The translations under genes were made by a program, and so were the position numbers. This document shows positions 24,367 to 60,933 of a stretch of 64,000 bases of DNA, piece by piece; positions within the stretch are counted from its first letter, which is position 1, and each line of letters opens with the position of its first letter. The notes under the pieces were generated by a model. That model was given only the letters and a program-made list of their open reading frames with translations. It was not told the origin of the DNA and searched no databases. The stretch is from Aurantiochytrium sp. KH105 (Eukaryota; Sar; Bigyra; Thraustochytrida; Thraustochytriidae), in contig BGKB01000110.1 of NCBI GenBank assembly GCA_003116975.1, positions 1 to 64,000 of the forward strand, given 5' to 3'.

Positions 24367-25743
24367 ATGGTGGCGCCAACAACGGTCTGCCACGGGTCGC
24401 CTCGCGACGGGAGCCTTAGCTCGACGTCCTCGGAGGGCTCGCGCACGCCGCCCTCGTCGCCGCAGCCGCCGTGCCATAAACGCGCCCACCAGGGCCAGCA
24501 GCACTCAACGCAGGGCGCTGGACCCAAGGGAACGAAGCGCGCAAGGGAACAACAGCCCCAGCAACAGCAGCAACAACAACAACAGCCACAACACGTCGAC
24601 CACAAGCAGCAGCGCATGCTAGAGCGCAAGCGCCGCAACCGCGAGTCCGCAGAGCGCTCTCGTCAGCGCCGCATCCAGTACTACAAGCAGCTCGAAACCG
24701 ACGTGACGGGCCTTCGCGCCGAAAACGCAGCCCTCCGCACCGAGGTCGAGCAGCTGCGCAAGGGCAACGTGGGCCCTCATGCCGCCGGTAACACCGCTGG
24801 CAAAAAACCCAAAAATCCCACCGCCGCCGACACCATTGGCATGGTTGAAATGCGCGCCCAGAACGCAGCACTCCAAGCCCAAGTCGAGCGACTCCAAGCG
24901 GAACTTGCCGCACAATTGCAGCCTCGCAAGCGCGTAAAAGCAAATGCCGGCACGCACATGGCACAGACGCACCAGCCCGCACATGCCGCTGGGCCCCAGA
25001 CCCACGGCATGCCCGCCCCATTGCACCCCATGGGTCATGCAACGGCTGCATCCCTTGCGGCCCCCGCTAACGCAACGTCAAGCAACCGGCGTCGGGGGGG
25101 TCGCGCTGCGCGAAGCAACGCGCAATCCGTGCGTATTAGCCATAGCGTCGCTGACGACGCAATGCATCGCATGAATGATCCTTTGTACACGTTCGATATG
25201 GCAGGGTCGCCTCTCGGCGTGCACACGAAGCAGCACGGCGTAAAGGAACAAGAACCACAAGGAGGCGAGAACAATGCTCACGCGGGCTCCGGCAGTGATG
25301 ACCTCGAGTGTCTTCTCGAAGACGTGCTCACCATGGAGATGGGCGGCGCCAATCTCTTCCCAAGCGATCCCACCTTCAAGGAACTGGAACTGTCCTCGTT
25401 GGAAAATGACGAGGCGGTGGACCTGGACTCAAAGTTCGAATCGGCAGCATTCAAAGCGGCATCGTGCAAATTGCAAAAGCGAGGCGAAAAAGCCCGTACG
25501 CAGCACGAGTCCTCGATCTTGACGCCAATGATCAAGACGTTGGACCAGCCCGCAAACTCCCCGCAGTTGGAGCGCTTTGATCCAGATACCCCAGTTATTC
25601 CCTTGATGCGTGGCTCGCCTGCGAAGACTTTGGCGCCTAGCCTCGAGTCTCCTCAGACGGCCGTCTTACCCTCGACCTCCACACACCATTCCCCTCTTTT
25701 ACAACCAAATAATGAAGGACCTGCAAACTTGCTTCTGATTTGA
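24367..25743 (+). CDS. bZIP transcription factor 1
   Basis: 458 aa from the ATG at 24367. The N-terminus is Ser/Pro-rich, then a poly-Gln stretch (about 62-73). The basic region at about 85-103 contains NRESAERSR (N91, R99), matching the N-x7-R signature, and is followed by a leucine zipper with heptad leucines at 109, 116, 123 and 130. A second helical Gln/Leu segment (about 165-190) might extend dimerisation. The rest is low-complexity with acidic segments near the C-terminus (EDVLTMEMGG, then LENDEAVDLDSKF) that could activate transcription. The basic region is very close to that of the minus-strand bZIP at 27937-28877, so the two are paralogues placed tail to tail. Targets are unknown. 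Confidence 0.9.
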   Translation: MVAPTTVCHGSPRDGSLSSTSSEGSRTPPSSPQPPCHKRAHQGQQHSTQGAGPKGTKRAREQQPQQQQQQQQQPQHVDHKQQRMLERKRRNRESAERSRQRRIQYYKQLETDVTGLRAENAALRTEVEQLRKGNVGPHAAGNTAGKKPKNPTAADTIGMVEMRAQNAALQAQVERLQAELAAQLQPRKRVKANAGTHMAQTHQPAHAAGPQTHGMPAPLHPMGHATAASLAAPANATSSNRRRGGRAARSNAQSVRISHSVADDAMHRMNDPLYTFDMAGSPLGVHTKQHGVKEQEPQGGENNAHAGSGSDDLECLLEDVLTMEMGGANLFPSDPTFKELELSSLENDEAVDLDSKFESAAFKAASCKLQKRGEKARTQHESSILTPMIKTLDQPANSPQLERFDPDTPVIPLMRGSPAKTLAPSLESPQTAVLPSTSTHHSPLLQPNNEGPANLLLI

Positions 25744-27749: not shown

Positions 27750-27936
27750 TAATTGTGAGTACTTGTTTGTTCGGGAGCAGAAGACGTGTTATTCCCCTTT
27801 TGGATACCCAAATGGTTGGCATGCCGGATCGTGTTGGGGGGGCCGTCTCGCGAGACGCATACAAGAAGGAGTAAAAGGGCCAAGAAATTCAAGAATCGCG
27901 CGGGAGTGATGTGAAACTGATGAAAGATAAGTACAT

Positions 27937-28877
27937 TTACAGGAGGAAGTCGTCGTCAGCTCCGACGACTGCGCCAAAGTCAACGTCTGTGTCGAAAAGA
28001 TCCGAAGAAACAAGGTCATCTGTTTGCGGTCCAACTGCAGGGAGAAAGCGGGTACCAACGTTGAGTTCATGTACGAATCAATCGAGGCGCCGCAAATGAA
28101 TACTGCTGATTCAGGGGTTGCAAACAGATCCTTGAGCAAGGGGATCTCGTCGGACTCCAGTTCCGTCGTCAATGGGGCAGCAGTGGGGCTGCTCGAGGTC
28201 TGAGCACGAGCCGTAGAGCTCGCGTGCTCTGTTTTGTCTGTGTCCATGTCCATGTCAATGTCATCATTGAGGATCGCGCCGAGGATGTCAGCGTCGACGA
28301 AAGAATCGTCAGCACTGGGTTCAACAGACACGCGTGTGGGCGTCACACTTGAAGAGAGATTACTGAGCACCTCATCGAGCGTCGACTCGATGCTCTTGGC
28401 AAGCTCTGCGTGGTCTGTCTCGCTGCACTGTGCTTTTGGTGAAGCAGGAGGTGATGCGACCGACGTGCTCGAGGAAGCAGGCGTCGCTGGTGAAGAAGAA
28501 AACGACGAAGGTGTGTCGGACTTTGCCGCCGCAAGCTGCGCGCGGAGTTGTTCAACCTCTCGCTGAAGGTCTTGATGGGAGGCGAGTTTGGTGCGGAGCT
28601 CTTCATTTTCTTTGCGAAGGTCCACGACCGAGATCTCAAGATCCTTGTAGTATTGAAGCTTGCGCTGGCGCGAGCGCTCGGCAGACTCGCGATTCCTCTT
28701 TTTGCGCTCCGCAAGTCTTTGCTTGCGAGCCTCGTCGTCGTCGGCGCCGCGACGGCGCTTTCTGTTCGACTGCTGGATGGACGCCTCGGGGCTCGCGGGC
28801 GGCGTCGAGCACTCGGACGCATCCGACCGCATGGCGCTGGTCGAGACGGACTCGCACTCGAGGTCGACGGCCGTCAT
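27937..28877 (-). CDS. bZIP transcription factor 2
   Basis: Starts at the ATG at 28877; the frame is open further upstream without a convincing start. The basic region at about 56-73 carries NRESAERSR (N62, R70). The zipper has leucines at 80, 87 and 94 and continues to about 118. Ser/Thr/Pro-rich and acidic stretches follow (for example DIDMDMDTD), typical of an activation region. The frame from the ATG runs on to 27789, but its last 80 codons lose all acidic character. A different frame, open from 28077 to a TAA at 27937-27939, gives an acidic end (DDLVSSDLFDTDVDF) that looks like the true C-terminus. A possible acceptor CTGCAG ends at 28035. I could not find a donor of the right phase, so either an intron or an indel separates the two frames. 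Confidence 0.85.
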
Positions 28878-31800
28878 CTTTGCGAGCTGTTCGTGCTTGT
28901 GCGCGTGCTTGGGCGAGGGTGCGAGCGAGCGAACGGAGGCGCGTGTGAGTAGGGAGCGAGAGCGTCCACCGAGCAGGAACGGCCCGATGTGTTCGCTCCT
29001 TTCCGGTTCTGGCCGAGCTGCCGAAAAAAGGCGCGTCGAGGCCAGGTTCTGTCTACCGGACGAGAGCCGGAACCTGCCAGCTGCTCTGCTCTGCTCTGCT
29101 CCGCTCCGCTCCGCGCGGAAGCGCTGACGTGGCACAGCGACCACGTGTACGGCACTCTCCCCGTTACGGCTCTGACTGACCGCGAGAGAGGGAGGGCCCG
29201 AGACGAAGACACCGGTCACCAGGTCTGGCTCCACGCAAGTGCGCTATCCGTGCGCGCAAGTCGGACGCTGAGGAATTTTCACCTTGCGAAGGCCGCGCGC
29301 AAAGGGGTTTATATTCCGTTGACTGGGCGGACAAGCTTGCGCAGAGCCGGGCGGCCCGGAGCTACAAGACTGTCGGGAATACAGTGCGAGATTCGAGAAC
29401 TTGTAGAAACGTTGGAGGTGGAGGGCGTTGTTCTGGAAGCCGGAGCATAAAAACCCGATTTTGCCGAAGCGCATATCAACAGTTCGTTTGCGAACGATAA
29501 AGAACGTATCGGGTTAACCTAATTATCCCGGTTCCAGCGTGGCATGATTAGCCGGTTTCGGGGAAAGTAATAGTTTTACCGTCACGTTGAAAGAAAGTCA
29601 GTGCAATAATATGTGCTTGATGTGCTTTAAGGTGCTAATTGGACATGATCTCCTCACGGAAAAACTGAGCTTGTACATCGGTATATATTGTAAGGGGTAA
29701 GGTGGCTTTTTCCTTGCGAGAACGGTGCGTAGGTGGAGGAAGAGAAGTGCACACCTGTTCGTTGAGAACGCGAAGGATATCTGGGCTCGACATTTTCAAT
29801 CGCTTTCCTCGCGTCGCATGCAGGCATGCATGCATTCATTTTTCGTTAACTTCCTCGCATGTCATGCTCGGCTTGATTTTCTCGCTCGCTCTCGTGCTGG
29901 CTTGCGTCATGCACGCGGACGGAACGGATGCACGGAGCAAAGTCGATGAACGTGACTGTGACGTGCGGCTTGAATGTGCAGCCTGGCCCATTGCACCATC
30001 GGCAAATCCTGCTTTTGCAGGCCCAGTGCTTGAGCCTTGGGTCCGGGGGCCCAGGCCCCGGTGCGTTCTTTGCGCGAGGTTGAATTCTCGACGCTACCAG
30101 TACTTTTCCGCTGTCTTTTGTCGCCGCCGTCCTGACACGCACTCCACGCCCGACGCATCGGCATTGATCACTACCGGCAGCAATGTGGCGGTTCGCAATG
30201 CCCTCGACGCCTCTCTTCGAACCGGAAGCGGGGTCCTTGTAGCTGGGATCTTGCAGTTTTACGCGTTGAAAATCCTGTCACCTCACGTGGGACCTGGTCG
30301 GTGGACGGAGGCCCCAGCGCGAGCACGCGAGGCCCGTGCAAGCCATCGTGCACGCCGATCATCCCGCTCGCGCGCGCGCGCAGGCGAGGCCGCGAGGGAG
30401 GCCTGATCGCGCTGCGGTTTCTCATGGTCTATGGGGTCCTTCTCCAGCACTCGCCCACGCATCCTGCACAGAACTTCCTCGCTCGGATCCTTGCTTGCCT
30501 GGAGCCCGCGGCTTAATGATTCGCCTGCGTTCTTGCTTGCTAGCTTGCGTTCTTGCGAGCTAGCTCTCATCACAGCCAGTACTACTCACTATGATTGCTT
30601 TTTTGTTGTTGGTCGTCCGCTCGATGGTTCGTTGGTTCGTTGGTTCGTTGGTTCGTTCGTCCGTTCGTTCGTTCGACCATCGATCGGGGGAGGGTCGGCG
30701 ATCGATCGATCGACGTCGCTCGCCCAACCGACCTGTCCGTCGAGACGAGCTGTGCTGCGCTGGCGGCGGGGTCTGCGGCCAGAGCAGCTCACACCCGACA
30801 GTCAAGGCGGGGCCTGGCACGGGCAGGCGCTCCCAGGACCTGGCGGCTGCCAGGGCAGGGCCGAAAAGAGTGAAGGGAAAACCCGCGGCCGCCAGCAGTG
30901 ACAGGCTTTCCACAGTGGCGGGCCGCTGTGGACGCGGCAGCGGGTGGCCGAATGGGAGGCAGGGAGAAAGGCGCCCCGCGTCGCTGTCGCTGTCGCGCGG
31001 CCTCTGGCAGTTGCTCGGTCGGTCGGTCGGTCGGTTGGTCGCTGGCTGGCCGTGCCGCTACCGCGCGGATCGGCCGTCCATTGGCGCAGACGCGCGGGGC
31101 CTGGCGCCAGCACGCGCGGAGCGCTGACGCCAGCACGGCGGCCGTGCCGACCTTAGACCGCCCTGCAGGGCGATTTTCGAGAAACGTAAGCCGCCCCTCC
31201 AATCAACAGCCAGGTTTTTCTCACCAGCCAACAAGCTGAAAGCAGGCGATCTGCGCGATCGATGCGACCCGCTGCCGTCAATGCGATGCGAAGGACGACG
31301 CGCGGTCAGTCAGACGCGCGGGCGCCGCCGGTAACCGGCCAGGCTCAGCACGGGCGGCGTTGCACAGCACGGCGCAGCACAGCACGGCGAAGGTCAGGGG
31401 AACTAACTGGCAGCAGGGGAAAGACAGCGACTGTGGGGGAAGGCGAGGAGGCAGGGGGTACACCGTAGTTGTGGAGGTGAGACTGATTTGAGAAGCTCTG
31501 TGGAAAGCGCGGGCACCCGCCAGGGAGCGCGTGCGCCTAGTCCACGGTCCATGGCTAGTGCCGACACCTTGCGCGTGGCCGAGGCGTGCGTGCCTCGCTC
31601 GCACTGCGACTATCTGCGCGCACACCATACCTCCCTCCTCGGCGGCCCTGATCTTCGCGAACGGCGCGGGGCAGTGGGCCCCACGGGCGCCCGAAGCGCG
31701 TGCTGGAGTCGAGGGCAAGGCGCCCGAGAAGCCGCGAGGGCTTCTCGAAGTCTTGTCAGGCGGCGGCGGGGGGGGACGCTGTCGTGCGTGCAGCGGCCAC

Positions 31801-40472: not shown

Positions 40473-41396
40473 ATGGCCGCGGCCGAGGCGCGGCGAGACG
40501 AGGGACGGCCACTCGCCGCAGGCTTCGATCATGACCTCGTTCGTGCTGCAGCGACGGGCCGGCTCGACCTCATGTCGCGCATCCTCGACGCCAAGGCGAG
40601 CACAGGCCAACTCGGGTCTGCCAAGACCAAGATCGGTCGCGCAGCCCTCATCCGCGCAGCGGGCAAGGGACAGCTCGAGGCCATGCTGGACCTACTGAAA
40701 CGCGGCGCAGAGCCGGATTCGCATGACGCAGAGTCTCTCCGTACGCCGCTTCACGAGGCTGTCGCCGTACGCAAGTCGCAAGCTGTACGGGTCCTTCTTG
40801 ACGCCGGGGCCTCGGTGCACGTCGAGGACAGGAGACTACACCGTACGCCGCTTCTATGGGCATGCGATCAAGGGACGCACGATATTGCGTGCCTTCTCCT
40901 TGCTGCCGGTGCACGAACGGAGGCTCGCGACCTCAAGGCCATGACTGCGCTGCTTCTTGCAAGCGCCGCCGGTCACACGCCCATCGTCCAGACTTTGGTC
41001 GGTGACCACAGCGCCGACCCGCACGCGCGCGACGCACGCTTTGGAAGGACGGCCTTGGAATGGGCTCTTTGGGGCGGCCACGCAGACACGGCTGCGGTCC
41101 TCTTCGAGCTCGCCAACGCAAGAACACATCAGCACAAGGCTTGTCTCGACCGCGCCATCGCACTCGACAAGAATCTCGTTCTCATTTCCATCGTCCTCAT
41201 AAGCGCCTCCTCAGAGACGGGAGACCTTCCCGTCGTTGTCGCCGCTGCGCGTCACCTCCCGCAACACATTGTTGCAGATCTTCAGTGCACAAAGATGCCA
41301 CGAGATGCGGATGCTGCGCGAGAGCTTCAGGCAAGTCTAAAACCCTTGCTCAAGTGGTGTCACGAATGTGTGCAAAATGCTGTCAGAGATGATTGA
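40473..41396 (+). CDS. Ankyrin-repeat protein
   Basis: 307 aa from an ATG at 40473 (ccATGGcc context). About six ankyrin repeats fill residues 20-220, recognisable by TPLHEA, AVRVLLDAGAS, TPLLWACDQG, ACLLLAAGA, TALLLASAAGH and TALEWALWGGH. The last 85 residues are helical with no named domain. Ankyrin proteins are protein-binding scaffolds; no catalytic domain, membrane segment or signal peptide is visible, so partner and role are unknown. It sits between the convergent paralogues A and B. Confidence 0.88.
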   Translation: MAAAEARRDEGRPLAAGFDHDLVRAAATGRLDLMSRILDAKASTGQLGSAKTKIGRAALIRAAGKGQLEAMLDLLKRGAEPDSHDAESLRTPLHEAVAVRKSQAVRVLLDAGASVHVEDRRLHRTPLLWACDQGTHDIACLLLAAGARTEARDLKAMTALLLASAAGHTPIVQTLVGDHSADPHARDARFGRTALEWALWGGHADTAAVLFELANARTHQHKACLDRAIALDKNLVLISIVLISASSETGDLPVVVAAARHLPQHIVADLQCTKMPRDADAARELQASLKPLLKWCHECVQNAVRDD

Positions 41397-48893: not shown

Positions 48894-51800
48894 ATGTCGT
48901 GGCGCAAGTACACAGCTCGCTCATCGCGGGCCGTCGCACCATCCAGCGAAGCCAGCGATGCCGAAACACTCATTCCCCAAGAAGATGATGCAAGTGTCCC
49001 GCGACTGGCAAACCTCGGTGCCGTCTGCCTTGTAGCGTACGTCATCGCGAGCGCCGTGGTGCCGAATGTTGTCGTTTTTGGCACCGACAATCACACTGCC
49101 ATGCTACTCGCAGCATTCGTGAGTAGCTTCACTGCGGCCACCTTTGCTCTCGAAACCCTCTCAAGCGCACAATTCAGCATTCGAACCTTTGCGAAGAAAG
49201 TGAGGAATCCATCCATCCTCATTTCAAGCTTGCCCTTCGGGATCGTCTTCTATGCAGCCCAGGGCAACCACACTCTTACGACACTTGCCATGCTCGCCTT
49301 TCTGGCGCGTTTCCATCGCGTGTTCGGAGACTACTGGGCAAATTTTCTCGTCATTGTGAAAAATACCTTTCCCACGCCGCCGCTGCAACTCATCCGACTC
49401 GGATGGCTTGCCATTCTCGTGGCGGTTATGCAATCTCTCGCATCCTGCAGCTACTATGCTCTCGGGGAAGCTGCTCTCAACGGTACATCATGGATTGACG
49501 GCGATGGCATCCGAGACGATGATTCGCAGCGTCAGATCGAGGACCCAAGCTCTCCGGCCATGCTGCGCATCTCCCGGTCTATCTACTTTGTGTGGCAGAC
49601 ACTTTTGACCGTCGGCTACGGAGGAATTGCTCCAGAGGCTCTTCAGGAGCGCGCGCTTGCCCTCGTCGTCTGTCTCGCCGGTGTCTTTCTCATGGCGTAC
49701 ATGATTGCTAACATGACCTCATTTCTCGTGAACCTTGACTCGACCCCGGCCGCCCATCGCTTTACACTGGATAGCGTCGAGGCCCTCTTTGCGCAGAAAT
49801 CCTTTCCCAATGCCTCGATGCGCATCGCACGCCGGGACCTTGCCCGCCAGTGGGCGCGCAGCAAAGGCCTTACTCGCGAAAAAGTTCTCGATGACCTTCC
49901 CCCAATCTTGACACGCAACATCATCAAGCTCAAGGCTCGTGCGTTGCTCAAAACGCCAATATTTCGCCTCCCGAGATCTTCCGACCCTTGCAGGCGCGCC
50001 ATCTACTACCTCGTCGACAAAATGGAGCCTTCTATTTTCGAAGTTGGACGTACACTCCGCGAGCCTTGGAACGTTATATCCTATCGTCCGGGCGTCATGT
50101 GGCTCATGGTCGACGGGACAGCCGCCAAACGAAGCACCTCGCGTCATCCACTCGCGCAAATGCTTCCCAGCGCCCCATCAAAATCAAGATCTCTTCGTGC
50201 TCGGGCGACATCTCAGTTCCGGCAAAACACTGCAACGGAAGAAAGCGCACCAGGCACTGCGATGGCGACAATGTCAAGGCGGCGCAGCTCGTTCCGCGGC
50301 GGGCCCAACCCATTTGTTGAGCGCAGTTTCACTGCCTCCTCCGCAATGCTATGGGGAGAACCCGGCGTGGATCCTCATGCCACCGACGTGCCAAATGATC
50401 TTGCACAGGAAATTGCCGAGAACTACCCGGACCTGCTCATGCCCGGAGCAACCATCGGCGCACTGCGACTATTTGACATCTTGCAAAGTCCAGCGCCACG
50501 TTACGTTGCGGTCACTCGCTGCGAGCTCGTCTTCATCAACTATGTCGACTTTCGCCGCATGGCCCTCCTCTTTCCCGAATGGGGAATGGAGTCGACTTCC
50601 CTGCGGGTTATGCGTGCCATGGAGGCGCGTCGAATCGCTAAACTTGCTCCAAATAATGATTCGTCCGAAATACCCGAGACAGCAACAGCAAGTTCTTTTT
50701 CTTCAGCAGCTACAGAAGGTGGCCCCGTTGAGCTCGACGATCGCGTTGTCGACCAGATCGATGCAGAATGCAACTATACCTCTCTTCTCGGCTTCGACGA
50801 CGACGACGACGACGATGACGGAGGAGAAGAACGAAAGGGAAAAGTCGAAAATGACAACAACAACAAGGATGGCAATGGCGATGGCGATGGCGATGACATG
50901 GCTAACAATCATGACTCCGCTGAAAACGCTCGAGAAAAGAATCAAAGCGAAGTCGTCACTTCCGAGTCAGTCACCCAGAAGAATCAAAGTTTTTCGGACG
51001 AAGAGGCACGTCGGAAAAAATTATCAGTGGCAATGGCAAGTGCCGACATGGCCGCCAAACTACGACTCTCGCTGAACAAGAGAAAAGAGACCACAACCGT
51101 CAAGAAAAGATCCAAAATTGCAGCCATCATGCAACAGGATCTGAATGAGAAAAGAGGAGATACCAACGGATTTGTGGCCCGATGGCTCGTAAGATTTCGA
51201 TTTGCGCACGGCTCTCGAGCGGACGTTCTCTGGGACTGTGCGCTTGCAGTGATTCTTACCTCGTATGGTATCTTTGTGCCAATACATCTCGCCACGATGA
51301 TTATCGACGGTATCTCAGGTTTTTCGAACCTCACACGTCTCAACGCGCTTGGAGCCTTCTGTGGAGATACGATCTTTCTTGCGTATTGGACCTTGCGCCC
51401 ACAGCTTTTCATCGCCGAAGCCGAGCAGCAAAAGTCGAGAAACCCGCGCGGATCAGAATCGTTTTCGCAAGATCAAAACAGACGCCGCCATAGCGCCTTA
51501 TCGTCTGCTTTTACGAGCGGCAAGCGCTCGTCGATCACCTCCTCCCAGGTATCCCTTTCTGCAATCGCGTGGTCCTCACAGCAAGAAGCGCTCACCAACT
51601 ACCACGCAAAGATGGCAAGGCGCCGCGCACAATTTATTGGGATGATGGAGATCTTTTCTGAAGTCGTGCTCACGTTTCTTTCTCTCGTGAGTCTTGGACT
51701 CGTGATTTCGGGCGATGCGCAGCATAAGCGTCTTGCTGTCTTCATGAGGGTTCCCTTTCTCATTCGACTTTCTCGCATTGGTTCAATCACTGACAGCCTC

Positions 51801-54800
51801 GGCTCACACTTCGCAGCTTGGCGTCAACGCCAAAGACAGATGCGGGCCGTCCGCGCTGATGAGGCCACTGCTACAAACACGTTGGCGGGAAGATCTGCAA
51901 GCACCTCAAGAATCGCTGAGGAGACGGACAATCAAAATGGCAAAGGTCCCTTCCTCTCTGCTCGCCTTGGCGTCTACTTTCTTCTCTGGGCGCATCTCAT
52001 TGCGTGCTATGGAATGACCATTCTTAACGACGCCGAAGACGAAAGCACATCCGAGCGCTATGTAAAGGGCATGTACTGGTCGTTGGCAACAATGACAACT
52101 ACTGGTTTTGGAGACTATGAACCCACCTCTGCGCGTGACTCTCTCATCACCTCGGCGCTCGCGATTATCGGTGTCACCATCTACTCGTGCCTTGTATCTT
52201 TCATCGGGACTTTGCTCAAAGACGTTGAGTTCTCTGACAACAATATTTCCCATCAGCGGACCTGTCTTATGGCCTTTTTGCTCGACCGCAAAATCTCACC
52301 CCAGCTGCAAGAGAAAATCATGCTGTACTTGCATCATGTGGAGGCCAAAGACCTCCTCGTGCTCAAGCGCGTGCTCGGCGTTTCGGAAAGCAAGCAGACT
52401 GAGAAGTTCGGACACCGCGGGCAGCGCCAAGCGCTCGATAGCGAAGAGGCACTCGCTTCGGCAGATTTGCTTCGCTCTGCAAGCAGCATTCGAGCGGTGT
52501 ACAAAGGTTTCTGGGATCGAATTCGGGAGCAAATTGCTGGCCGCGACGTGACCTCTTGTCCGCGGTCCCACGAATCAGATTTTCTGAGAGCCGATGTGCG
52601 TCTGCAGCTCGTCTTCGATCTCGCAGGAGCTGCCGTGCGATCATCCAAGCTCTTTGAACACGTCTCTGAAGCTTTTGTCCGGGAAGCATGTGCCCTGCTC
52701 GACTTCCGAATCCTCAGTGCTGGTGATGTAATCATCGACGATGTTAACGCCGGATGGGAGCTGTTTTTTCTTGCGACCGGCAGCATCGAGGTGCGCGATC
52801 GAAGCGACATCAAGCTGAGCAACATTGGTGAAGGTCAAAGTTTTGGCGAGCAAAACTTTGCGGAGATTAGTCAGAGCGTACGTGAGCTTGACGTTGCAAA
52901 CGCAAGGAATGGTGACATCTTTTCGTCTTCTGCAAGTTCACCGTCTGCCGCACTGACAGCTTCTGTAACAAAGGCTGACAAGGAAAAGACACGTTTCATC
53001 GCAACCACCGTCGCAGAGGTTTGGGTCTTATCGGGCCGCGCTGTGCGGCACCTATCGCTTATTTTCCCGCAAGATGGCGAATCGATCAAAGTGGCCGAGG
53101 CAAAGCTCTTGAGCGCAGGCAAGAGCGAGTCGGTCGCCTCAAACCTCCGTCGGGGAGGAAAGCTCGCGAAAATGGCCGGGAACGACACGGTGCTTGAGGA
53201 CAAGCGCAAAGCGCCTCGAGTCATCCGCCTTGACTCGCACTTCCAGGCAACATGGAAGAGATGCATGTTGTTCTCCTTGTTGTGGATCTACGTCTCTTTT
53301 CCAGTACGCTTCGCGTTTGTCAACGATTACGAGCCCGGTCCGACAGCTCTCATCATTGATAGCTGCGTTGACATTCTTTTGATTCTCGACGTTGTTTTAC
53401 GTGTACGGTTCTTCGAGCTCGAGACGGTGCAAGGGGAGCGTCTAAGTAATCCTGCCGAGTTTCGCCCAGCCTATTTGCGTTCTCTCTTTGGCGTGACGGA
53501 CATACTCAGCGCACTCCCGATCGGTCTCGTGGCGCTCATGGCCGGGGCCCCGCACAATTCGCTCTTTCGCCTAAACAAGCTGTTCCGCGGGTCACGAACC
53601 CTGGACCACTTGGCTTCAATTGGCAGTCACGTTAAAAATCAGGCGAGAAAGAGTCTGCTGACCATTGCCAAGCTCATTTTCGTCTTTATGCTCGTCGCAC
53701 ACTGGGCGGGCTGTCTATTTTACAGAATAGCGGCAAAGTACGAGATTGAATGCAGCAAAAGTACCGAAAGAATCTCATGGGTCTGCGAGCAAAACGTTGA
53801 GGCAGACAATGACATACTCGATGACTATGTTAATGCTTTATACTTTGCAGTGGCAACAATTACAGCCGTCGGCTTTGGAGACGTTGTGCCCATATCTCAG
53901 GAGGAGATTCTCTACACGATTGGCATTCTCATCATTGGCGGCTTGCTCTACTCGGTGATTATTGCTTTTCTCGAGGATATCGTGGCGCAGTCAGATCTCA
54001 CGTCCATTTTGTACCAAAAGAAGTCCGACCTCATTTCTGCGTACGCTTCAATGCGCGAATTTTCACCTCAATTACGGTCAAGTATTCGCTCCTATGTCTT
54101 TCGCTCTTGGATGCGCCAAAAGGGCGTCAACGATGACCATATTCTCAGCTACCTCAGCCGACCGCTGCGACAACAGGTCGTTCTCGAGCTCATCGGCGAG
54201 CAGACGCTTCGAAGGACTCCCGTGCTTGGGCCCTCGCGTGTGTGGCGCTTTGTGACTCATTCCATTCGTTTTGACCGCTTCAGGAGACAATCGATACTCT
54301 ATCATGCTGGACAAACTGGAGATCAACTTTTCTTTCTTCTCAAGGGTTCTGTGGAGGTCGTCTCGCCAGACTTGGAGCGCGTCTTTTACCAGGTTGAGAG
54401 CCCGGGCGGCGTCGTTGGTATCGATGGCTTCTTGCGTGCTCGCGACGGCGGTTATCCTGCTTCAGCGAGGTGCAAGGAATCGTGCGAAGTTGCTATTCTC
54501 GACCGCAGCGCCGTGGCTAACGCCCTCGTTGACAATCCTCATCTTGTCAGTCTCTTTGAAGAGGAGCTCAGGCAGTTCGTGGCCAAGCCGAGCCAACTTG
54601 AGCACACCAAGAAGAATCTCGACAAGCGCAAGCTTACCAAAATGTTTCAAGATACGGAGCAGAACGAGAGTACAGGTCGGAAAAGGGGCTTTGATCTCAA
54701 TCGCTACGTCCTCATGCCAGGCCACTTCAATTACGTTCTCTTTCATGCCATTCTCTTTTATGTCACCATCGAAATTGGCATTTTGGTACCTCTCTGGGCC

Positions 54801-56576
54801 ATGATGTCGGCATCGGACGCCTTTGCCATGCAGGACACATCTGGAGCCTACATTGGTATAAGCTTGCAGATGGATCTCTTTCTCTGGTGCTTTGTAGGGA
54901 TCAACGCCATGCTTGTATCTCGGGTCAAGAACGGTCGTGTGCTTTCCGAATGGAGGGACATTCGACGAGCCTCCTTACGGTCATTTGGTTTTGCAATCGA
55001 CCTGATTGCCACCTTGCCATTTGATCTTATTGGTCTCGCCGTGGCAGAATCTGCCGAGTCGAGCAGCCCTTTGCACGTTTATCTTCTGCTGCGTTTGCTG
55101 CGCCTCCTCTGGCTTCGACACATTCCACGGTGCTGGACAATTTTTGACAATGCCATCGACGCTTCCGCTCGAATACAGATCACGAGTGGCTACAGGCACC
55201 TGATCAAGATTGTTGCCACGGTGCTCCTTGTGTCACATTGGCTGGCGTGCGGGTACGCACGAGTTCTTATAAGAACTCGTAGCAACTGGCCTTGTCGAAC
55301 CATGAGCGAGGATTGCCAAGCGAATATTGGCCGAGCCTACATTGATTCTATCTACTTTACTTTTTACACGGTGACAACAATTGGCTTCGGGAATGTCCCA
55401 GTCATCGGGATCGCGGAGCGCATCTTTGCAATCTTTGTCATGGTCGTGGGCTCCTTTCTTTGCGATGCAGGCATCACATCGACACTGGTGTCAATCATTG
55501 ATATCGAGGACTCCACCGCGGCTGCTGGAAACCGATACAGAGACGCAGCACTCCAGCTCATGGACCATATGCAACTATCAAACCGCATTACGGGCTTGGT
55601 GCGCACCTATTATGCGTACCGGGTCGAAGAGATGGCTGTGAAAGACAGCGACTGTTTTCGCGAGCTGCCCTTTTCTCTCAACAATTCCGTCAAGGAGTTT
55701 CTTGGTTTGCGCACCTTGCGCACAAACGCAGTAAAGTGCAAGAACTTGCGCGACTTGAGGGATGGCCTGCTTGTCTCGCTTTTCCGCTCGCTGCGCAACG
55801 AGGTAATCATTCCCATGGAGAAGCTCTACAACTCCGGATCCCGGGTCCTCCGACTCGTTTTTGTCGCTCGCGGACGTGTGCTCGCGTTCGCAGCTCGAGA
55901 TCTCTCGAAAGAGCAATTGCGGAAGCTCGGGTCCTCGCGCAATATCCTCCGCAGACGGATGTCCCTCCAATCGTCATTCACGCAGCGTAACCTGAAGACA
56001 GACGAGGCGAGCGCTGAGCTTTGGAACCCAGGCTTGCTCCTCCCCAGTGTTGGGTGGGGTGAAGCTTCGCCCGTAACTTTAGTCACGGGCAGCTTTTGCG
56101 ACGTGTTAATCTGCGATCAGATGGTGTACGAAGAATTCATCGCTCTGCGTCCGCCGGTCGGGGGTCTTTATAGCTCTGCAAAGGCACTTTTGGAAAACAA
56201 GGAAGATGCAAAGCATTTGCGCGCATTTCTCGAAAGACGCTTCATGGCAGAGACGGTGAACTTTATCCAGCTTGTGGATGACTTTCGCCGATCCCCGAAT
56301 AACGAGGTGATGCGAGCCAAGCGCGCTGCAACCATTGTGAGTCGATTCATCGTGCCTGACGCCGACGAGGCCATTAACATCAGGCCAGAGGTCGCAAATG
56401 GCATAGTACAACGAGTAGAGATGGATCCTGCTCCAGAAGCCTTTGACGAGGCCTACGAAGCTGCCACCGCGACACTTGAAAGGGAGATACTTCCGCAATT
56501 CCAGACTTCGCCTGAATACGAAAAGCTACTCTCAAGCATTCATCGTCGCTCCGTTCTCGACTTTGTTACTGAATAA
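48894..56576 (+). CDS. Four-unit (pseudotetrameric) CNG/EAG-type K+ channel with C-terminal RGS domain
   Basis: 2560 aa in one exon from an ATG at 48894. It has four channel units, each with membrane segments and a K+-type pore: TVGYG (239-243), TTGFGD (1069-1074), AVGFGD (1658-1663) and TIGFGN (2162-2167). Units 2-4 have S4-like helices with spaced Arg (near 946-961, 1559-1568, 2067-2079); unit 1 has few. cNMP-binding-like folds follow the pores: a split, degenerate one (about 380-575), then about 1250-1395, 1780-1895 and a degraded one (about 2290-2415). The glycine-rich cores are visible (LFFLATGSIEV, QLFFLLKGSVEV), but the Arg of the phosphate-binding cassette is not apparent. An Asp/Asn-rich insert lies at 633-670. 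Residues about 2430-2545 read as an RGS domain (FLERRFMAETVNFI, FI, INI, FDEAYEAA, EYEKLL). It is the pseudotetramer layout of CNGK channels, and probably a membrane K+ channel linked to G-protein signalling. Confidence 0.9.
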   Translation: MSWRKYTARSSRAVAPSSEASDAETLIPQEDDASVPRLANLGAVCLVAYVIASAVVPNVVVFGTDNHTAMLLAAFVSSFTAATFALETLSSAQFSIRTFAKKVRNPSILISSLPFGIVFYAAQGNHTLTTLAMLAFLARFHRVFGDYWANFLVIVKNTFPTPPLQLIRLGWLAILVAVMQSLASCSYYALGEAALNGTSWIDGDGIRDDDSQRQIEDPSSPAMLRISRSIYFVWQTLLTVGYGGIAPEALQERALALVVCLAGVFLMAYMIANMTSFLVNLDSTPAAHRFTLDSVEALFAQKSFPNASMRIARRDLARQWARSKGLTREKVLDDLPPILTRNIIKLKARALLKTPIFRLPRSSDPCRRAIYYLVDKMEPSIFEVGRTLREPWNVISYRPGVMWLMVDGTAAKRSTSRHPLAQMLPSAPSKSRSLRARATSQFRQNTATEESAPGTAMATMSRRRSSFRGGPNPFVERSFTASSAMLWGEPGVDPHATDVPNDLAQEIAENYPDLLMPGATIGALRLFDILQSPAPRYVAVTRCELVFINYVDFRRMALLFPEWGMESTSLRVMRAMEARRIAKLAPNNDSSEIPETATASSFSSAATEGGPVELDDRVVDQIDAECNYTSLLGFDDDDDDDDGGEERKGKVENDNNNKDGNGDGDGDDMANNHDSAENAREKNQSEVVTSESVTQKNQSFSDEEARRKKLSVAMASADMAAKLRLSLNKRKETTTVKKRSKIAAIMQQDLNEKRGDTNGFVARWLVRFRFAHGSRADVLWDCALAVILTSYGIFVPIHLATMIIDGISGFSNLTRLNALGAFCGDTIFLAYWTLRPQLFIAEAEQQKSRNPRGSESFSQDQNRRRHSALSSAFTSGKRSSITSSQVSLSAIAWSSQQEALTNYHAKMARRRAQFIGMMEIFSEVVLTFLSLVSLGLVISGDAQHKRLAVFMRVPFLIRLSRIGSITDSLGSHFAAWRQRQRQMRAVRADEATATNTLAGRSASTSRIAEETDNQNGKGPFLSARLGVYFLLWAHLIACYGMTILNDAEDESTSERYVKGMYWSLATMTTTGFGDYEPTSARDSLITSALAIIGVTIYSCLVSFIGTLLKDVEFSDNNISHQRTCLMAFLLDRKISPQLQEKIMLYLHHVEAKDLLVLKRVLGVSESKQTEKFGHRGQRQALDSEEALASADLLRSASSIRAVYKGFWDRIREQIAGRDVTSCPRSHESDFLRADVRLQLVFDLAGAAVRSSKLFEHVSEAFVREACALLDFRILSAGDVIIDDVNAGWELFFLATGSIEVRDRSDIKLSNIGEGQSFGEQNFAEISQSVRELDVANARNGDIFSSSASSPSAALTASVTKADKEKTRFIATTVAEVWVLSGRAVRHLSLIFPQDGESIKVAEAKLLSAGKSESVASNLRRGGKLAKMAGNDTVLEDKRKAPRVIRLDSHFQATWKRCMLFSLLWIYVSFPVRFAFVNDYEPGPTALIIDSCVDILLILDVVLRVRFFELETVQGERLSNPAEFRPAYLRSLFGVTDILSALPIGLVALMAGAPHNSLFRLNKLFRGSRTLDHLASIGSHVKNQARKSLLTIAKLIFVFMLVAHWAGCLFYRIAAKYEIECSKSTERISWVCEQNVEADNDILDDYVNALYFAVATITAVGFGDVVPISQEEILYTIGILIIGGLLYSVIIAFLEDIVAQSDLTSILYQKKSDLISAYASMREFSPQLRSSIRSYVFRSWMRQKGVNDDHILSYLSRPLRQQVVLELIGEQTLRRTPVLGPSRVWRFVTHSIRFDRFRRQSILYHAGQTGDQLFFLLKGSVEVVSPDLERVFYQVESPGGVVGIDGFLRARDGGYPASARCKESCEVAILDRSAVANALVDNPHLVSLFEEELRQFVAKPSQLEHTKKNLDKRKLTKMFQDTEQNESTGRKRGFDLNRYVLMPGHFNYVLFHAILFYVTIEIGILVPLWAMMSASDAFAMQDTSGAYIGISLQMDLFLWCFVGINAMLVSRVKNGRVLSEWRDIRRASLRSFGFAIDLIATLPFDLIGLAVAESAESSSPLHVYLLLRLLRLLWLRHIPRCWTIFDNAIDASARIQITSGYRHLIKIVATVLLVSHWLACGYARVLIRTRSNWPCRTMSEDCQANIGRAYIDSIYFTFYTVTTIGFGNVPVIGIAERIFAIFVMVVGSFLCDAGITSTLVSIIDIEDSTAAAGNRYRDAALQLMDHMQLSNRITGLVRTYYAYRVEEMAVKDSDCFRELPFSLNNSVKEFLGLRTLRTNAVKCKNLRDLRDGLLVSLFRSLRNEVIIPMEKLYNSGSRVLRLVFVARGRVLAFAARDLSKEQLRKLGSSRNILRRRMSLQSSFTQRNLKTDEASAELWNPGLLLPSVGWGEASPVTLVTGSFCDVLICDQMVYEEFIALRPPVGGLYSSAKALLENKEDAKHLRAFLERRFMAETVNFIQLVDDFRRSPNNEVMRAKRAATIVSRFIVPDADEAINIRPEVANGIVQRVEMDPAPEAFDEAYEAATATLEREILPQFQTSPEYEKLLSSIHRRSVLDFVTE
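56181..56528 (+). other. RGS-like domain coding segment of the channel gene
   Basis: The segment encodes residues about 2430-2545. Helix-by-helix landmarks of the RGS fold are in order: FLxxxFxxExxxFxxxVDxF, then AxxIVSRFI, AINI, FDEAYEAA, and the closing F-x2-S-x-EY-x2-LL. The domain is about 115 residues, the usual RGS size. No stop, intron or frame change separates it from the channel. Confidence 0.75.
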
Positions 56577-56720: not shown

Positions 56721-58556
56721 TCAGTTGACCTCATAGCCAATTTTGTCAAACATATCGCAAACATTCTCACGAAAGTCGTATTGAGGGTGCGAGGACACTT
56801 GCATCGTGAGCATTCCCTGACGTGAGACGTTGAACTTTGGGAAAAAGAGAGCCCCCGGGGAGTCCGATTGACGTGGCAACTTCCGCGGCGAATTTGGGTT
56901 TCCTGTGCGCGCAAAGTTGGTCCAGATGGTCTGCATTTGCGAACTCAGAATCAGCTCTGCAGGAGTCGGCCCCGGGGCTGGTTGGTGACTTTCATTCCGC
57001 GCAAGGTACATGGTATTGAAGAGCATGGCAAGGTCACACCCATGACAGATCTCGTGCTCACACCCGGGCGAGAGACCATCCTGCATAAAGTGGTTGAATG
57101 ACGGGAGATGGTTGTAATAATAGACAAAGACTGGATTCGTCTGGGCAGCGTGCTTGGCAAAGGCGCGAATCGAGCACGTAAAGATGTAGTCTGTGGCGAT
57201 TTGCGTAAGAAATTTGCGCACGTCGCCCTCGCGAGTCATTGCCTGGTCGGGTGGCCCGTACTGATGAAACACGCGATGCGCATCAAGCGGGCCGAAAATG
57301 GCCTCGATGAAGAGCTCGTATTTGAGCTTGGACATGGGGTCGGGCGACACGTCCCAAATATAAGCGACGGACTCGTTTGCGACGGAACCAATTAACATGG
57401 GAACGGAGGCAAGCTTGCCGCGAGCAGCCGCCTCCATGGGCGAGAAGGGAAGCTCCGTGCCATCGACAACAGGGGTCCAGGGCATGAACTTGTGCAGCAT
57501 CATTCCGGGAAAGGTGGGAAAAGCGGTTTTCTCTTGGACAGTGAGAATTGTCTCCGTGGTGAGATTCCGGAGGCATGCTTCCTCGCGAACCTCATCGATG
57601 TGGCCGCATCCCACGGCGTTGACAAAGCGTTTGCTGAGCTGCTCTGACTTTGCTGTTGTTTCTGTGGGCAGGGCAATTGGATCAGAAATCGCAGCAGCGC
57701 GCTGGAAAAAGGGCCAACTCCGAGGGCTCGCCAAATGTGCAGCCACGGAGAATGCACCTGCGCTCTGGCCAAAAATCGTGACGAGCTGGGGATCGCCGCC
57801 AAAGGCAGCAATGTTGGTCTGGACCCATTGCATAGCAAGCCTCTGGTCTTGCAGCTGAAAATTTCCTTGAATTCCGCCACGCTTCGTGTAGAGTCCTCCG
57901 AGGACGCCGAGCCGGTAGTTGAGCGTCACGACGACTGCGCTCTGCTCGTGAGACCATCGTGATCCGTGATACAGGTTCACGCCACCCGAGCCAGCAACAT
58001 AATTTCCGCCATGGAAGAAAATAAGAACGGGTAAAGCTTGTTGCGAACGAAGTGTCTTTACGCTCTGCGGCGTGAAAACGTTCACGGAGAGGCAGTCCTC
58101 GGACGTTGTCGAGGGGCACGTAAAGTCTGGTTGCCCGAATGTACACGCTTGAACGCACCCAGGCCCAAATTGAGCAGCGTAAAAGGGTTCAGAAGAAAAG
58201 GCTTTGGCAGGTTCGGGAGGAGCAAACCTTCGCAGACCGACAGGGGCGCGCGCATACGGGATGCCCTTGTACGTGCACGTTGGAAAGGTCTCGAACCAGG
58301 TGCCAACGACTTCGCCTTGGGTGGCAAGACGCGCGCGGCAGGGGTTGTGATCGGCGTTGTTCACGCTGGCGTCGTCCTTTTGTAAACGATCAGAAACGAG
58401 GTCGAGGTCGCTGCCCATCCAGAAGCCCGTTGCGACCTGCTCATCTCGCCAGCTCTGCTGCTCAAGGGCTGCTAGGTTCGCTCGGTCAGGGTCGCCATGG
58501 ACAAGAAGCAAGCTTGCTGCGAAGGCTGTCGCGACGAGTGCTCCGTGTAAACCCAT
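56721..58556 (-). CDS. Secreted type-B carboxylesterase/cholinesterase-like enzyme
   Basis: 611 aa from an ATG at 58556. A signal peptide is likely (hydrophobic 5-20, cleavage near 21). The oxyanion-hole motif is HGGNYVAGSG (182-191), the family signature SEDCLSVNVF is at 152-161, and the catalytic Ser is S265 in GQSAG (GESAG is commoner). The probable acid is E395 (GSVANES) and the base H505 (CHGCDL). Cysteines near 134/138/147/155 and 499/504/507 suggest disulphides, in keeping with secretion. It hydrolyses ester bonds; the substrate (lipid, xenobiotic or choline ester) cannot be read from sequence. It converges on the channel gene with about 145 bases between. Confidence 0.92.
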   Translation of the reverse strand: MGLHGALVATAFAASLLLVHGDPDRANLAALEQQSWRDEQVATGFWMGSDLDLVSDRLQKDDASVNNADHNPCRARLATQGEVVGTWFETFPTCTYKGIPYARAPVGLRRFAPPEPAKAFSSEPFYAAQFGPGCVQACTFGQPDFTCPSTTSEDCLSVNVFTPQSVKTLRSQQALPVLIFFHGGNYVAGSGGVNLYHGSRWSHEQSAVVVTLNYRLGVLGGLYTKRGGIQGNFQLQDQRLAMQWVQTNIAAFGGDPQLVTIFGQSAGAFSVAAHLASPRSWPFFQRAAAISDPIALPTETTAKSEQLSKRFVNAVGCGHIDEVREEACLRNLTTETILTVQEKTAFPTFPGMMLHKFMPWTPVVDGTELPFSPMEAAARGKLASVPMLIGSVANESVAYIWDVSPDPMSKLKYELFIEAIFGPLDAHRVFHQYGPPDQAMTREGDVRKFLTQIATDYIFTCSIRAFAKHAAQTNPVFVYYYNHLPSFNHFMQDGLSPGCEHEICHGCDLAMLFNTMYLARNESHQPAPGPTPAELILSSQMQTIWTNFARTGNPNSPRKLPRQSDSPGALFFPKFNVSRQGMLTMQVSSHPQYDFRENVCDMFDKIGYEVN

Positions 58557-58929: not shown

Positions 58930-60933
58930 TCAGGTTTCCATTTTGGCGTTGAAGCCGCATTCAGGCAGGGTCCGCTGTTTGCTGTCTGTGTGCATTTGCT
59001 GCATTTGCTGCTGGCCTTGCTGCTGTGCAAGCCATGCGGGTCGCAAAAGGTGAGCGCCCCGCCCCGCTGATGCAGGTGAAGAGTTCGGTTGCGTTGATGG
59101 TGTTGAGGATGCGGGAAATTTGAACATGTTGGCGCCTTGCTCCGGGAGATGCATCGCTTCGGCTTCCTCGGCTTCTTCAAAGTCCACCCCGAAGAAGCGG
59201 TCAACGAGACGGTGTGCGCGTGCACAAAGGTTTGAATGAGCTGCTGGAAGCTGTCGCATCTCCAAATGCTCGAGTGCTTCAATGCCCTCATAGTCCATGA
59301 CCAGACGCACCCCCGAGCGCCCGCCCAGACGTGCCGCAGCAAAAGGATTGCTCAAACGAGCGAGGACCATTTCAACAAAATCAAGCGCACGGTACACAAT
59401 ATCGATATCTCGCTCTTGCAAGAGAGAAATAAAGACGTCGAGCACGCGCGGTGAGGTGGGCTCGTTAACTACATTGATGAGCACAGAGACGTCCTCGCGA
59501 TTGACGAGGTTGAGAAGCGCTGTGGACGCCGGCAACATAAACTCTGACGTGTACTTTGTGAAAAAGACGCAGAGAGGCGCTGCGAAACGACGCATAAGGT
59601 CATGCACGACCGCGGTCTCGTCCTGTGAGAGTGGGCCGCTTGATTTCGTTTGAAGCCCAAGAGTAAAGAGGTTCGCGACGGTCCAGATCGCTTCTCTGAC
59701 TCTTGCAGCAGATTCTCCCTCGACCATCATCGACTGCAGCGTGTCAAGAAACCCAGGCTGCTGACACACGGCTGTCACGAGCGATGCCTCGCGGCCGGGT
59801 GGACTCTCGAGACGCAGCGGAATCAAGTTTGCAAGAGCGCGCAGCGAAGGAATGCAGATCGAGAGCTCGCCTTTACAGGCTGTGAAGAGACGAACGAGGT
59901 GTGTGAGGATCTTTTGGTGCACGAGAATGATGCAAAGAGTCGGCTCCTTGGCGCTCAGGAATGTCAGGGTCCAAAGCACTTCACTGATGAGAGCGCCGGC
60001 GTCAGACTGGAAACCTTCGCGAAGAGCTTGGTCAGTGTATGACTCGAGAATTTCGACGAGGGCGAGATGCGCCGCGGCAGAGAAAAAGGGTTTGCCTGAG
60101 GTCTGATCGCCGCGCGCAAGGTTGCAGAGCGCCCATGCAGCCGTGCGCTTTACGCGAATGGCCTCGGGACTGTGAGGCTCGCGAAGAAGGATCACCAATG
60201 GAGGAATGACGCCGACTCGAATGAGCTCCTCACGCACGCTCTGATTTTCGGCAGCCATGTTCCCCAGGGCCCATGCTGCCTGGTCCCGGACCTTGCGCGG
60301 GCCCCGATTGAGGAGTGTCGTCAGCGCGGGAACAGCGCAGAGTGTTGCTTGCGTTTGCTCGGCCGTGCCCGTGGCAATGTTTGTAATGCACCAAGTGGCG
60401 TTGAAGGCAAGGTCGAAACGGGCCTCGGCGTCATCCGCCCTGGGGTCGACGCGGAGGAGTGGCAGCATCTTCTCGACCATGCCTCGGTCAAGGCAAAGCT
60501 GTGTGGCAACGTCGCTGTGCGTGTACCTGTCGTGCTCTTGGTGGGCAAGCTCAGGTTCGCACGACGCCCGGAGAGGCGCGAGCGAGAGCCACGCACGGAG
60601 GTCCGCCACTGCTCGAGCGGTGTTTTCCGGGACATCGAGGTCATGCAGGGCCTGGCTCACTTGGTCTGCGGTGTAGCTGTCTTGCGCTGCGCCCTCGGCA
60701 CGCTCTTGCTTTTCGAGCGCGCGTCTCCGTTTTGCCTGCGCGGTGGCCCCACGCTGTCGCTTGCGAATTTCGACGGACCTTTGGATGCGGCCCTCGCGCG
60801 CCTCTGCGACATCGAGGCTCTTTCGGAACGATCCGCCGCTTGAGGCGCGGCCGAGGCTCTTGCTCGAGCCCAAGGTGTCCTCGCCGCCCGCGCTCTCGAG
60901 GTTGTCGAAGTGGACGCCGTCCAGGAGATTCAT
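58930..60933 (-). CDS. Importin subunit alpha (karyopherin alpha)
   Basis: 667 aa from an ATG at 60933. An importin-beta-binding region lies at about 47-75 (RSVEIRKRQRG, then KRRR at 68-71). A tandem array of ARM repeats follows from about 90 to 590, with conserved helices such as AAWALGNMAAENQSVREELI, TAAWALCNLARG and WTVTFL-like segments. The C-terminus has the acidic FEEAEEAEAM patch that closes the array, then a 60-residue Ser/Gln/Pro-rich extension, so the protein is longer than the usual 520-550 aa. It should bind classical nuclear-localisation signals and dock on importin beta for nuclear import. Confidence 0.95.
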   Translation of the reverse strand: MNLLDGVHFDNLESAGGEDTLGSSKSLGRASSGGSFRKSLDVAEAREGRIQRSVEIRKRQRGATAQAKRRRALEKQERAEGAAQDSYTADQVSQALHDLDVPENTARAVADLRAWLSLAPLRASCEPELAHQEHDRYTHSDVATQLCLDRGMVEKMLPLLRVDPRADDAEARFDLAFNATWCITNIATGTAEQTQATLCAVPALTTLLNRGPRKVRDQAAWALGNMAAENQSVREELIRVGVIPPLVILLREPHSPEAIRVKRTAAWALCNLARGDQTSGKPFFSAAAHLALVEILESYTDQALREGFQSDAGALISEVLWTLTFLSAKEPTLCIILVHQKILTHLVRLFTACKGELSICIPSLRALANLIPLRLESPPGREASLVTAVCQQPGFLDTLQSMMVEGESAARVREAIWTVANLFTLGLQTKSSGPLSQDETAVVHDLMRRFAAPLCVFFTKYTSEFMLPASTALLNLVNREDVSVLINVVNEPTSPRVLDVFISLLQERDIDIVYRALDFVEMVLARLSNPFAAARLGGRSGVRLVMDYEGIEALEHLEMRQLPAAHSNLCARAHRLVDRFFGVDFEEAEEAEAMHLPEQGANMFKFPASSTPSTQPNSSPASAGRGAHLLRPAWLAQQQGQQQMQQMHTDSKQRTLPECGFNAKMET

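Follow-up and report, generated by a model that had tools for sequence, protein, structure and literature searches.

A four-repeat K+-type channel fused in frame to an RGS-fold tail in the thraustochytrid Aurantiochytrium sp. KH105

G-proteins control ion channels through subunits that come and go. The locus described here raises the question of whether an RGS fold is built permanently into the chain of a channel, and of what such a fold would do there. The window (the whole stretch of DNA analysed, 64,000 nucleotides of contig BGKB01000110.1) contains an ATG-to-stop frame of 2560 codons, in which a four-repeat channel is followed without interruption by a C-terminal RGS domain (Table 1). At a GC content of 0.53, a random frame would stay open over this length with a chance of about 10^-47.6. 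The preliminary description of the sequence had claimed one uninterrupted frame and four complete pore motifs (GYG, GFG, GFG and GFG); both claims hold, the former from ATG to stop and the latter by the positions of the motifs as well as by four pore stretches in Pfam. The other genes recognised in the window are also given in Table 1. The remaining five scanned frames have no Pfam family, RNA and tRNA scans of the 64 kb were empty, and no link between the neighbouring genes and the channel was seen.

Table 1. Positions of the features of the channel gene and of its neighbours in the window
Feature	Position	Strand	Evidence
Whole coding frame, 2560 aa	48894..56576	+	open frame, Pfam; C33 allele with 97% identity
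Repeat 1 selectivity filter TVGYG, aa 239-243	49608..49622	+	motif
Acidic linker joining repeats 1 and 2, aa 570-750; under weak constraint	50601..51143	+	dN/dS 0.47
Repeat 2 selectivity filter TTGFG, aa 1069-1073	52098..52112	+	motif
Repeat 2 cNMP-binding-like domain with insert, about aa 1253-1390	52650..53063	+	profile 1253-1348, 24.8 bits; end by eye
Repeat 3 S4-like segment, aa 1555-1577 (R1559, K1562, R1565, R1568)	53556..53624	+	
Repeat 3 selectivity filter AVGFG, aa 1658-1662	53865..53879	+	motif
Repeat 3 cNMP-binding-like domain, aa 1790-1883	54261..54542	+	profile 22.0 bits; best Pfam stretch at 1795-1878
Repeat 4 S4-like segment, aa 2060-2081 (R2067, R2070, R2075, R2079)	55071..55136	+	
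Repeat 4 selectivity filter TIGFG, aa 2162-2166	55377..55391	+	motif
RGS domain, aa 2430-2545	56181..56528	+	Pfam PF00615, 55.7 bits against a cut-off of 23.9
bZIP factor	24340-25743	+	Pfam
bZIP factor	27789-29234	-	Pfam
Ankyrin protein	40473-41396	+	Pfam
Carboxylesterase	56721-58556	-	Pfam
ARM-repeat protein, importin-alpha-like	58930-60933	-	Pfam

Pfam recognises four Ion_trans and four Ion_trans_2 stretches in the window protein, corresponding to the four S1-S6 repeats in one chain by which CNGK/TetKCNG channels are defined. Each repeat has the GYG or GFG K+ filter of these channels: TVGYGG (aa 241), TTGFGD (aa 1071), AVGFGD (aa 1660) and TIGFGN (aa 2164). The S4-like segments of repeats 3 and 4 carry four basic residues each, that of repeat 2 carries three and that of repeat 1 carries two. 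Repeat 3 is the best match to channels of solved structure, being nearest in a PDB sequence search to KCNH/EAG (KCNH1, E 1e-33), with SthK and CNG channels next. The filter begins with Ser in KCNH1 and with Ala in repeat 3, at a position that is Thr in many K+ filters. Channels of the KCNH group (EAG, hERG) are assembled from four separate subunits, have a PAS domain and are not known to carry an RGS domain, and their CNBHD is not known to bind cNMP. An AlphaFold model of repeats 3-4 and the tail (1123 aa, five-row alignment) has a mean pLDDT of 48. The Foldseek matches listed for the repeats 3-4 model are EAG/KCNH, CNG, SthK, HCN and plant K+ channels, at TM below 0.46 and rmsd of about 10-19 Å; given the low confidence of the model, they are taken only as agreement with the sequence. 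The homology of the repeats suggests that one chain should form one pseudotetrameric pore, and that this pore, built by a single chain, would be K+-selective and influenced by voltage.

The RGS domain passes the curated cut-off of its Pfam family (Table 1), and a search of PDB sequences with the same part of the protein finds RGS5 at an E-value of 2.2e-8. The preliminary description had reported an RGS-like end and had named HHpred as the means of checking it; Pfam and PDB profiles were used instead, and the RGS match at the C-terminus was found with both. An AF2 model of aa 2201-2560 has a pLDDT of 84-90 over aa 2431-2530 and of 70-72 over the next 20 residues, so that the RGS part is good, and a pLDDT below 50 over most of the part belonging to the fourth CNBD. 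The best 20 PDB matches of this model in Foldseek are all RGS domains or RGS-containing chains. The fold resembles that of the R4-type RGS proteins, to which RGS1, 2, 4, 5, 8 and 16 belong, and 13 of the best 20 matches superpose with an rmsd of 1.2-1.6 Å. The TMt (by target length) lies between 0.84 and 0.94 for several crystal chains of RGS1, 4, 8 and 16, reaching 0.92-0.94 for chains of RGS4, RGS8 and RGS16. Outliers among the best 20 are one RGS2 chain (5.9 Å) and four long RGS7 chains (above 24 Å), which superpose badly presumably because the alignment extends into the poor CNBD part. The predicted tail thus matches solved RGS domains, and the combination that had been proposed, a four-repeat K+-type channel of the CNG/KCNH superfamily with a true RGS fold in one frame, is supported: the window protein is almost certainly a KCNH/CNG-superfamily four-repeat K+ channel fused in frame to RGS.

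The host genome assembly (76 Mb, 367 contigs) appears to be diploid with both haplotypes present, its matches being largely paired as judged by eye. The copy on the second haplotype (C33, L009) encodes 2562 aa, is 97% identical and has the identical domain set. In a paralogue of 2859 aa (C49/C90) the domain order is the same, with GYG as the filter in all four cases and the RGS domain scoring 28.8 bits. The same order, which the preliminary description had suggested looking for in stramenopile proteomes, was found in five public proteins, one of them filed under Hondaea fermentalgiana. P0002 is 46% identical to the window protein (BLAST over aa 10-2560; RGS 63.1 bits) and P0007 is 32% identical over two main BLAST stretches (RGS 51.3 bits); the RGS domain of P0015 is recognised by Pfam at 34.5 bits. 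P0016 has no Pfam RGS at an E-value of 0.1 and a divergent RGS domain at 57.4 bits with a profile of the other six. The Hondaea protein, P0014, is named "Potassium channel AKT2", a name silent on the RGS domain, for which it carries a Pfam label (31.0 bits) in the protein database searched. Its orthologue in the present genome is not the window gene but the paralogue C49/C90, to which three segments are 92, 97 and 98% identical; the record starts inside the first repeat and shows three pore repeats. Judged from this one protein, the organism of the window is a thraustochytrid (Labyrinthulomycetes), and so a stramenopile, closely related to Hondaea.

No further scanned protein matches the six-protein RGS profile at an E-value below 1. 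P0003, P0008, P0009 and P0010, together with C59 and C104 of the same genome, are therefore four-repeat channel relatives without RGS; the translation of C104 may miss up to about 12 terminal residues, too few to hide such a domain. The protein searches scored limited candidate sets, returning 5, 8 and 5 proteins, and the spread of the family given here is a lower bound. Four four-repeat channel genes are found in this genome (C110, C49, C59 and C104). A two-repeat channel of the same superfamily was recognised by Pfam in L043 (C40 of the same genome), and L044, L045, L047 and L048 have, by pattern only, a single GYG/GFG pore motif per frame, so that channels of one, two and four repeats seem to occur side by side.

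Several observations concern the relatives themselves. In C104 (L042:6-7661 (-), about aa 1346), P0008 (aa 1330) and P0003 (aa 1740), the third pore loop reads LVVVVIGD in place of GYG, and the other loops keep GYG, GFG or GLG. Channels with this conserved asymmetric filter may not be purely K+-selective. Precomputed Pfam gives a C2 domain in the channel relative P0017, in which three pore motifs were found by pattern; a different signalling domain would here sit on this channel core. Two of the proteins, P0007 and P0016, have been filed under the dinoflagellate Durusdinium trenchii, and coding sequence takes up 78-79% of their contigs, which measure 9,427 and 10,161 bases. Because this leaves little room for introns and both proteins group with thraustochytrid ones, they come perhaps from a thraustochytrid in the Durusdinium trenchii culture, perhaps as a contaminant of the assembly.

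A tree was calculated from repeats 3 and 4 of 15 proteins (771 columns), the RGS domain being excluded. The seven RGS-bearing channels form a single clade with support of 95/94, which splits at 100/100 into one group of the window protein, P0002 and P0007 and another of the paralogue, Hondaea P0014, P0015 and P0016. Identity falls to 33% within the group of the window protein and to 22% between the two groups. Three neighbouring RGS-less rows are on long branches, and the branching order around the RGS clade is consequently unsure. The four-repeat channel of the tunicate Styela and its sister P0009 (EukProt), both assumed here to be CNGK-like, lie across an 87/86 branch from the RGS clade in a tree with several long branches. 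Since the seven RGS channels form one clade with two subclades, these sequences are best explained by a single old fusion and a later duplication that preceded the separation of the lineages. The design is, as far as can be judged from this tree, that of an old conserved family with two paralogue groups.

The RGS domain is under strong purifying selection. Between the haplotypes of the window gene, dN/dS is 0.164 for the whole gene, 0.47 for the acidic linker and 0.047 for the RGS domain (1 nonsynonymous and 6 synonymous changes). The corresponding values for the paralogue are 0.093 for the whole gene, 0.39 for the tail after the RGS domain and 0.059 for the RGS domain (2 nonsynonymous and 10 synonymous changes). 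When both RGS domains are pooled, 3 of 19 changes alter an amino acid, compared with 77% expected without selection, a proportion derived from the sites of the window gene (P 2.3e-8). This selection in both genes argues that the RGS domain is a working part of the channel.

To judge what the tail might bind, the seven channel RGS domains were aligned with three PDB RGS sequences and with four other RGS domains of the same genome, which are 4 of 84 matches, one per top-scoring pair, and as such biased towards the classical pattern. Nine positions in RGS4 numbering, among them E87, N88, N128, L159, D163, S164 and R167, were assumed to be the contacts with G-alpha. These read S E N N D L D S R in the PDB rows, and the four other RGS domains of the genome keep E, N, N, L, D, S/T and R. 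The window protein has M E T N R T E I Q, so that two of the nine canonical residues are kept (E87 and N128) and seven are changed, including those at N88, L159, S164 and R167. P0002 (I E S N N S D I Q) keeps three, namely E87, N128 and D163, and P0007 (Q E R E P E E P R) keeps E87 and R167. Each of the four RGS rows of the paralogue group keeps R167 alone. The N128 site is Glu in P0007, and in the paralogue group, where the alignment is gappy, it is Leu in three proteins and Ser in P0016. Between the window protein and P0002, the contact positions are identical in 4 of 9 cases and the whole RGS domain in 65 of 126 residues (52%). This comparison tells against a conserved surface for G-alpha on the channel RGS, as the contact positions are no better conserved than the domain overall. 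The RGS fold is apparently kept, and the classical contact set is not.

The best explanation overall, which must be called tentative, is a K+ channel with an RGS-fold docking tail, perhaps for G-alpha. Docking of G-alpha as the role of the tail is a possibility to be held with somewhat greater reserve. A partner would be available, since the genome is rich in G-alpha genes and cyclases: 27 of 46 G-alpha matches are over the cut-off, and there are 84 matches to RGS and 37 to nucleotide cyclases. The abundance of G-alpha genes does not show that any of their products binds the tail. Among the genome's other sequences, RGS is fused to PDZ and DENN in L046:1594-7353 (+) (C79) and to BAR, PH, ArfGAP and ankyrin repeats in L015:1433-6331 (-) (C2). 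A G-alpha match with one internal TGA is listed on paired contigs (C314:13060-14091 (-) and C245:49750-50781 (-)), flanked by two stop-free G-alpha matches.

Nearly as likely as the docking of G-alpha is that the RGS fold no longer meets G-alpha at all and binds another protein or packs on the gating ring of its own channel. Axin and AKAP10 have RGS-homology domains that dock other proteins. This possibility would account for the retention of one to three of the nine assumed contacts in all seven channels, yet with strong selection on the RGS domain in both genes tested, and for contact positions no more conserved than the rest of the domain. Against it, E87 and N128 are shared by the window protein and P0002, whose RGS domains differ at about half of their residues.

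Less likely than either of these is that the tail is a classical GAP, speeding GTP hydrolysis by G-alpha near the channel, which would thus shut off the receptor signal that reaches it. The predicted fold is a true RGS fold, its PDB matches include chains of RGS1, RGS4, RGS8 and RGS16 solved with G-alpha, and the two contacts retained in the window protein are found also in P0002. However, the four contact sites named above for the window protein are changed, and N128 is lost from P0007 and from the paralogue group although all of these proteins retain the RGS domain. With two of nine contacts kept in the window protein, and most of them kept in the four top-scoring other RGS genes of the genome, which lean towards the classical pattern, this activity is doubtful and the reading unlikely. 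The earlier proposal that the tail speeds GTP hydrolysis is weakened accordingly by the changes at most of the assumed contacts.

The domains that follow the repeats were compared with cNMP-binding domains. Pfam finds two such stretches in the window protein at a lax E-value of 1 and one in the allele at 0.05. A CNBD profile was built from four domains (three of P0009 and one of P0008); besides the matches to repeats 2 and 3 in Table 1, it gives a fragment of -3.1 bits in repeat 1 and nothing in repeat 4. The preliminary description had counted at least three cNMP-binding-like folds, a count that is partly borne out, those of repeats 2 and 3 being recognisable by sequence; the model of the fourth domain, mostly below a pLDDT of 50, is poor for judging its fold. 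In repeat 3 the profile places Tyr at the site of the phosphate-binding Arg, as also in P0002 and P0007, and Ile at the site of the ribose Glu. The profile mis-threads repeat 2 across its insert, and the residues of this repeat were therefore judged by eye: FGE is kept and the phosphate-binding Arg is absent. That Arg is absent by eye from repeat 1 as well, and repeat 4 has no cassette recognisable by sequence. In none of the four domains was the phosphate-binding Arg found (by profile in repeat 3, by eye in repeats 1 and 2), nor do Arg and ribose Glu occur together as in a cyclic-nucleotide-gated channel. Gating by cyclic nucleotides is consequently unlikely, its loss in the window channel being probable, and the coupling to cyclic nucleotides suggested earlier is weakened.

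It is thus very unlikely that the window protein is a cGMP- or cAMP-gated CNGK channel with the tail as an accessory. It is like the CNGK/TetKCNG channels of sea urchin, zebrafish and Salpingoeca in its four homologous repeats, GYG/GFG filters and CNBD-like domains after the repeats. According to PMC4749565, CNGK channels have four repeats with GYG/GFG filters, and Thr is found in three of the four sea urchin pores, as it is before GFG in repeat 2 here. The number of cyclase matches in the genome and the FGE of repeat 2 would also agree with such gating. Unlike CNGK, however, the window protein has a C-terminal RGS domain and degenerate CNBDs, of which two are recognisable by sequence. According to the same paper, the third CNBD of sea urchin CNGK alone works, and it is the third that has Tyr for Arg and Ile for Glu in the window protein; zebrafish CNGK is described as having canonical CNBDs in all four repeats, yet its gating is by pH instead of cNMP. 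A loss of cNMP gating therefore has precedent. As for two genes joined by assembly or annotation, this is scarcely credible: the frame is single and open in both haplotypes, and the same join in the paralogue and five public proteins rules out an assembly accident.

On the preferred reading, that of a K+ channel with an RGS-fold docking tail, the single chain would fold as a pseudotetrameric K+ channel of four S1-S6 repeats, each contributing its own K+-type filter to one pore. The CNBD-like domains, presumably unable to bind cyclic nucleotide in view of their missing residues, would probably be gating scaffolds as in EAG. The RGS-fold tail, one per pore, directly follows the fourth C-linker/CNBD region and would dock G-alpha in its activated form, or a related partner, at the gating ring on the cytoplasmic side. 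The voltage-dependent opening of the channel would thereby shift with the state of the G-protein. The window protein and P0002 retain the key Asn and may still catalyse GTP hydrolysis, which is unlikely as a conserved function. Taken as a whole, a K+ channel family without cNMP gating that reads the G-protein state through a covalent RGS fold holding G-alpha at the gating ring is a rather unlikely proposal.

The tail differs from R4-type RGS proteins in being covalently attached to a channel as well as in its contact residues. AtRGS1 is laid out as a seven-helix receptor-like protein with an RGS domain; MoRgs7 is likewise a seven-helix receptor-like protein, whereas the window protein is an ion channel. 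The presence of an RGS domain in these two integral membrane proteins, from a plant and a fungus, is reported in PMC5575782 and PMC6405168. In the open-access literature searched, no account of an RGS-bearing channel was found, in agreement with the earlier statement that no described channel of this build is known. Through the Pfam RGS label of P0014 the architecture is catalogued, but as far as seen in that literature it has not been described.

The window protein places a whole pore and an RGS fold in one molecule at a fixed 1:1 stoichiometry, an arrangement kept through duplication and divergence, and it belongs to a set of four genes that demonstrates channels of four repeats in a thraustochytrid. 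Should the tail bind G-alpha, the protein would by its nature couple the state of a receptor to membrane voltage within a single molecule, and would offer a simple system in which to study how the gate of a channel is moved by a G-protein. If G-alpha is held at the gating ring, it would be an ion channel with a built-in receptor for G-alpha.
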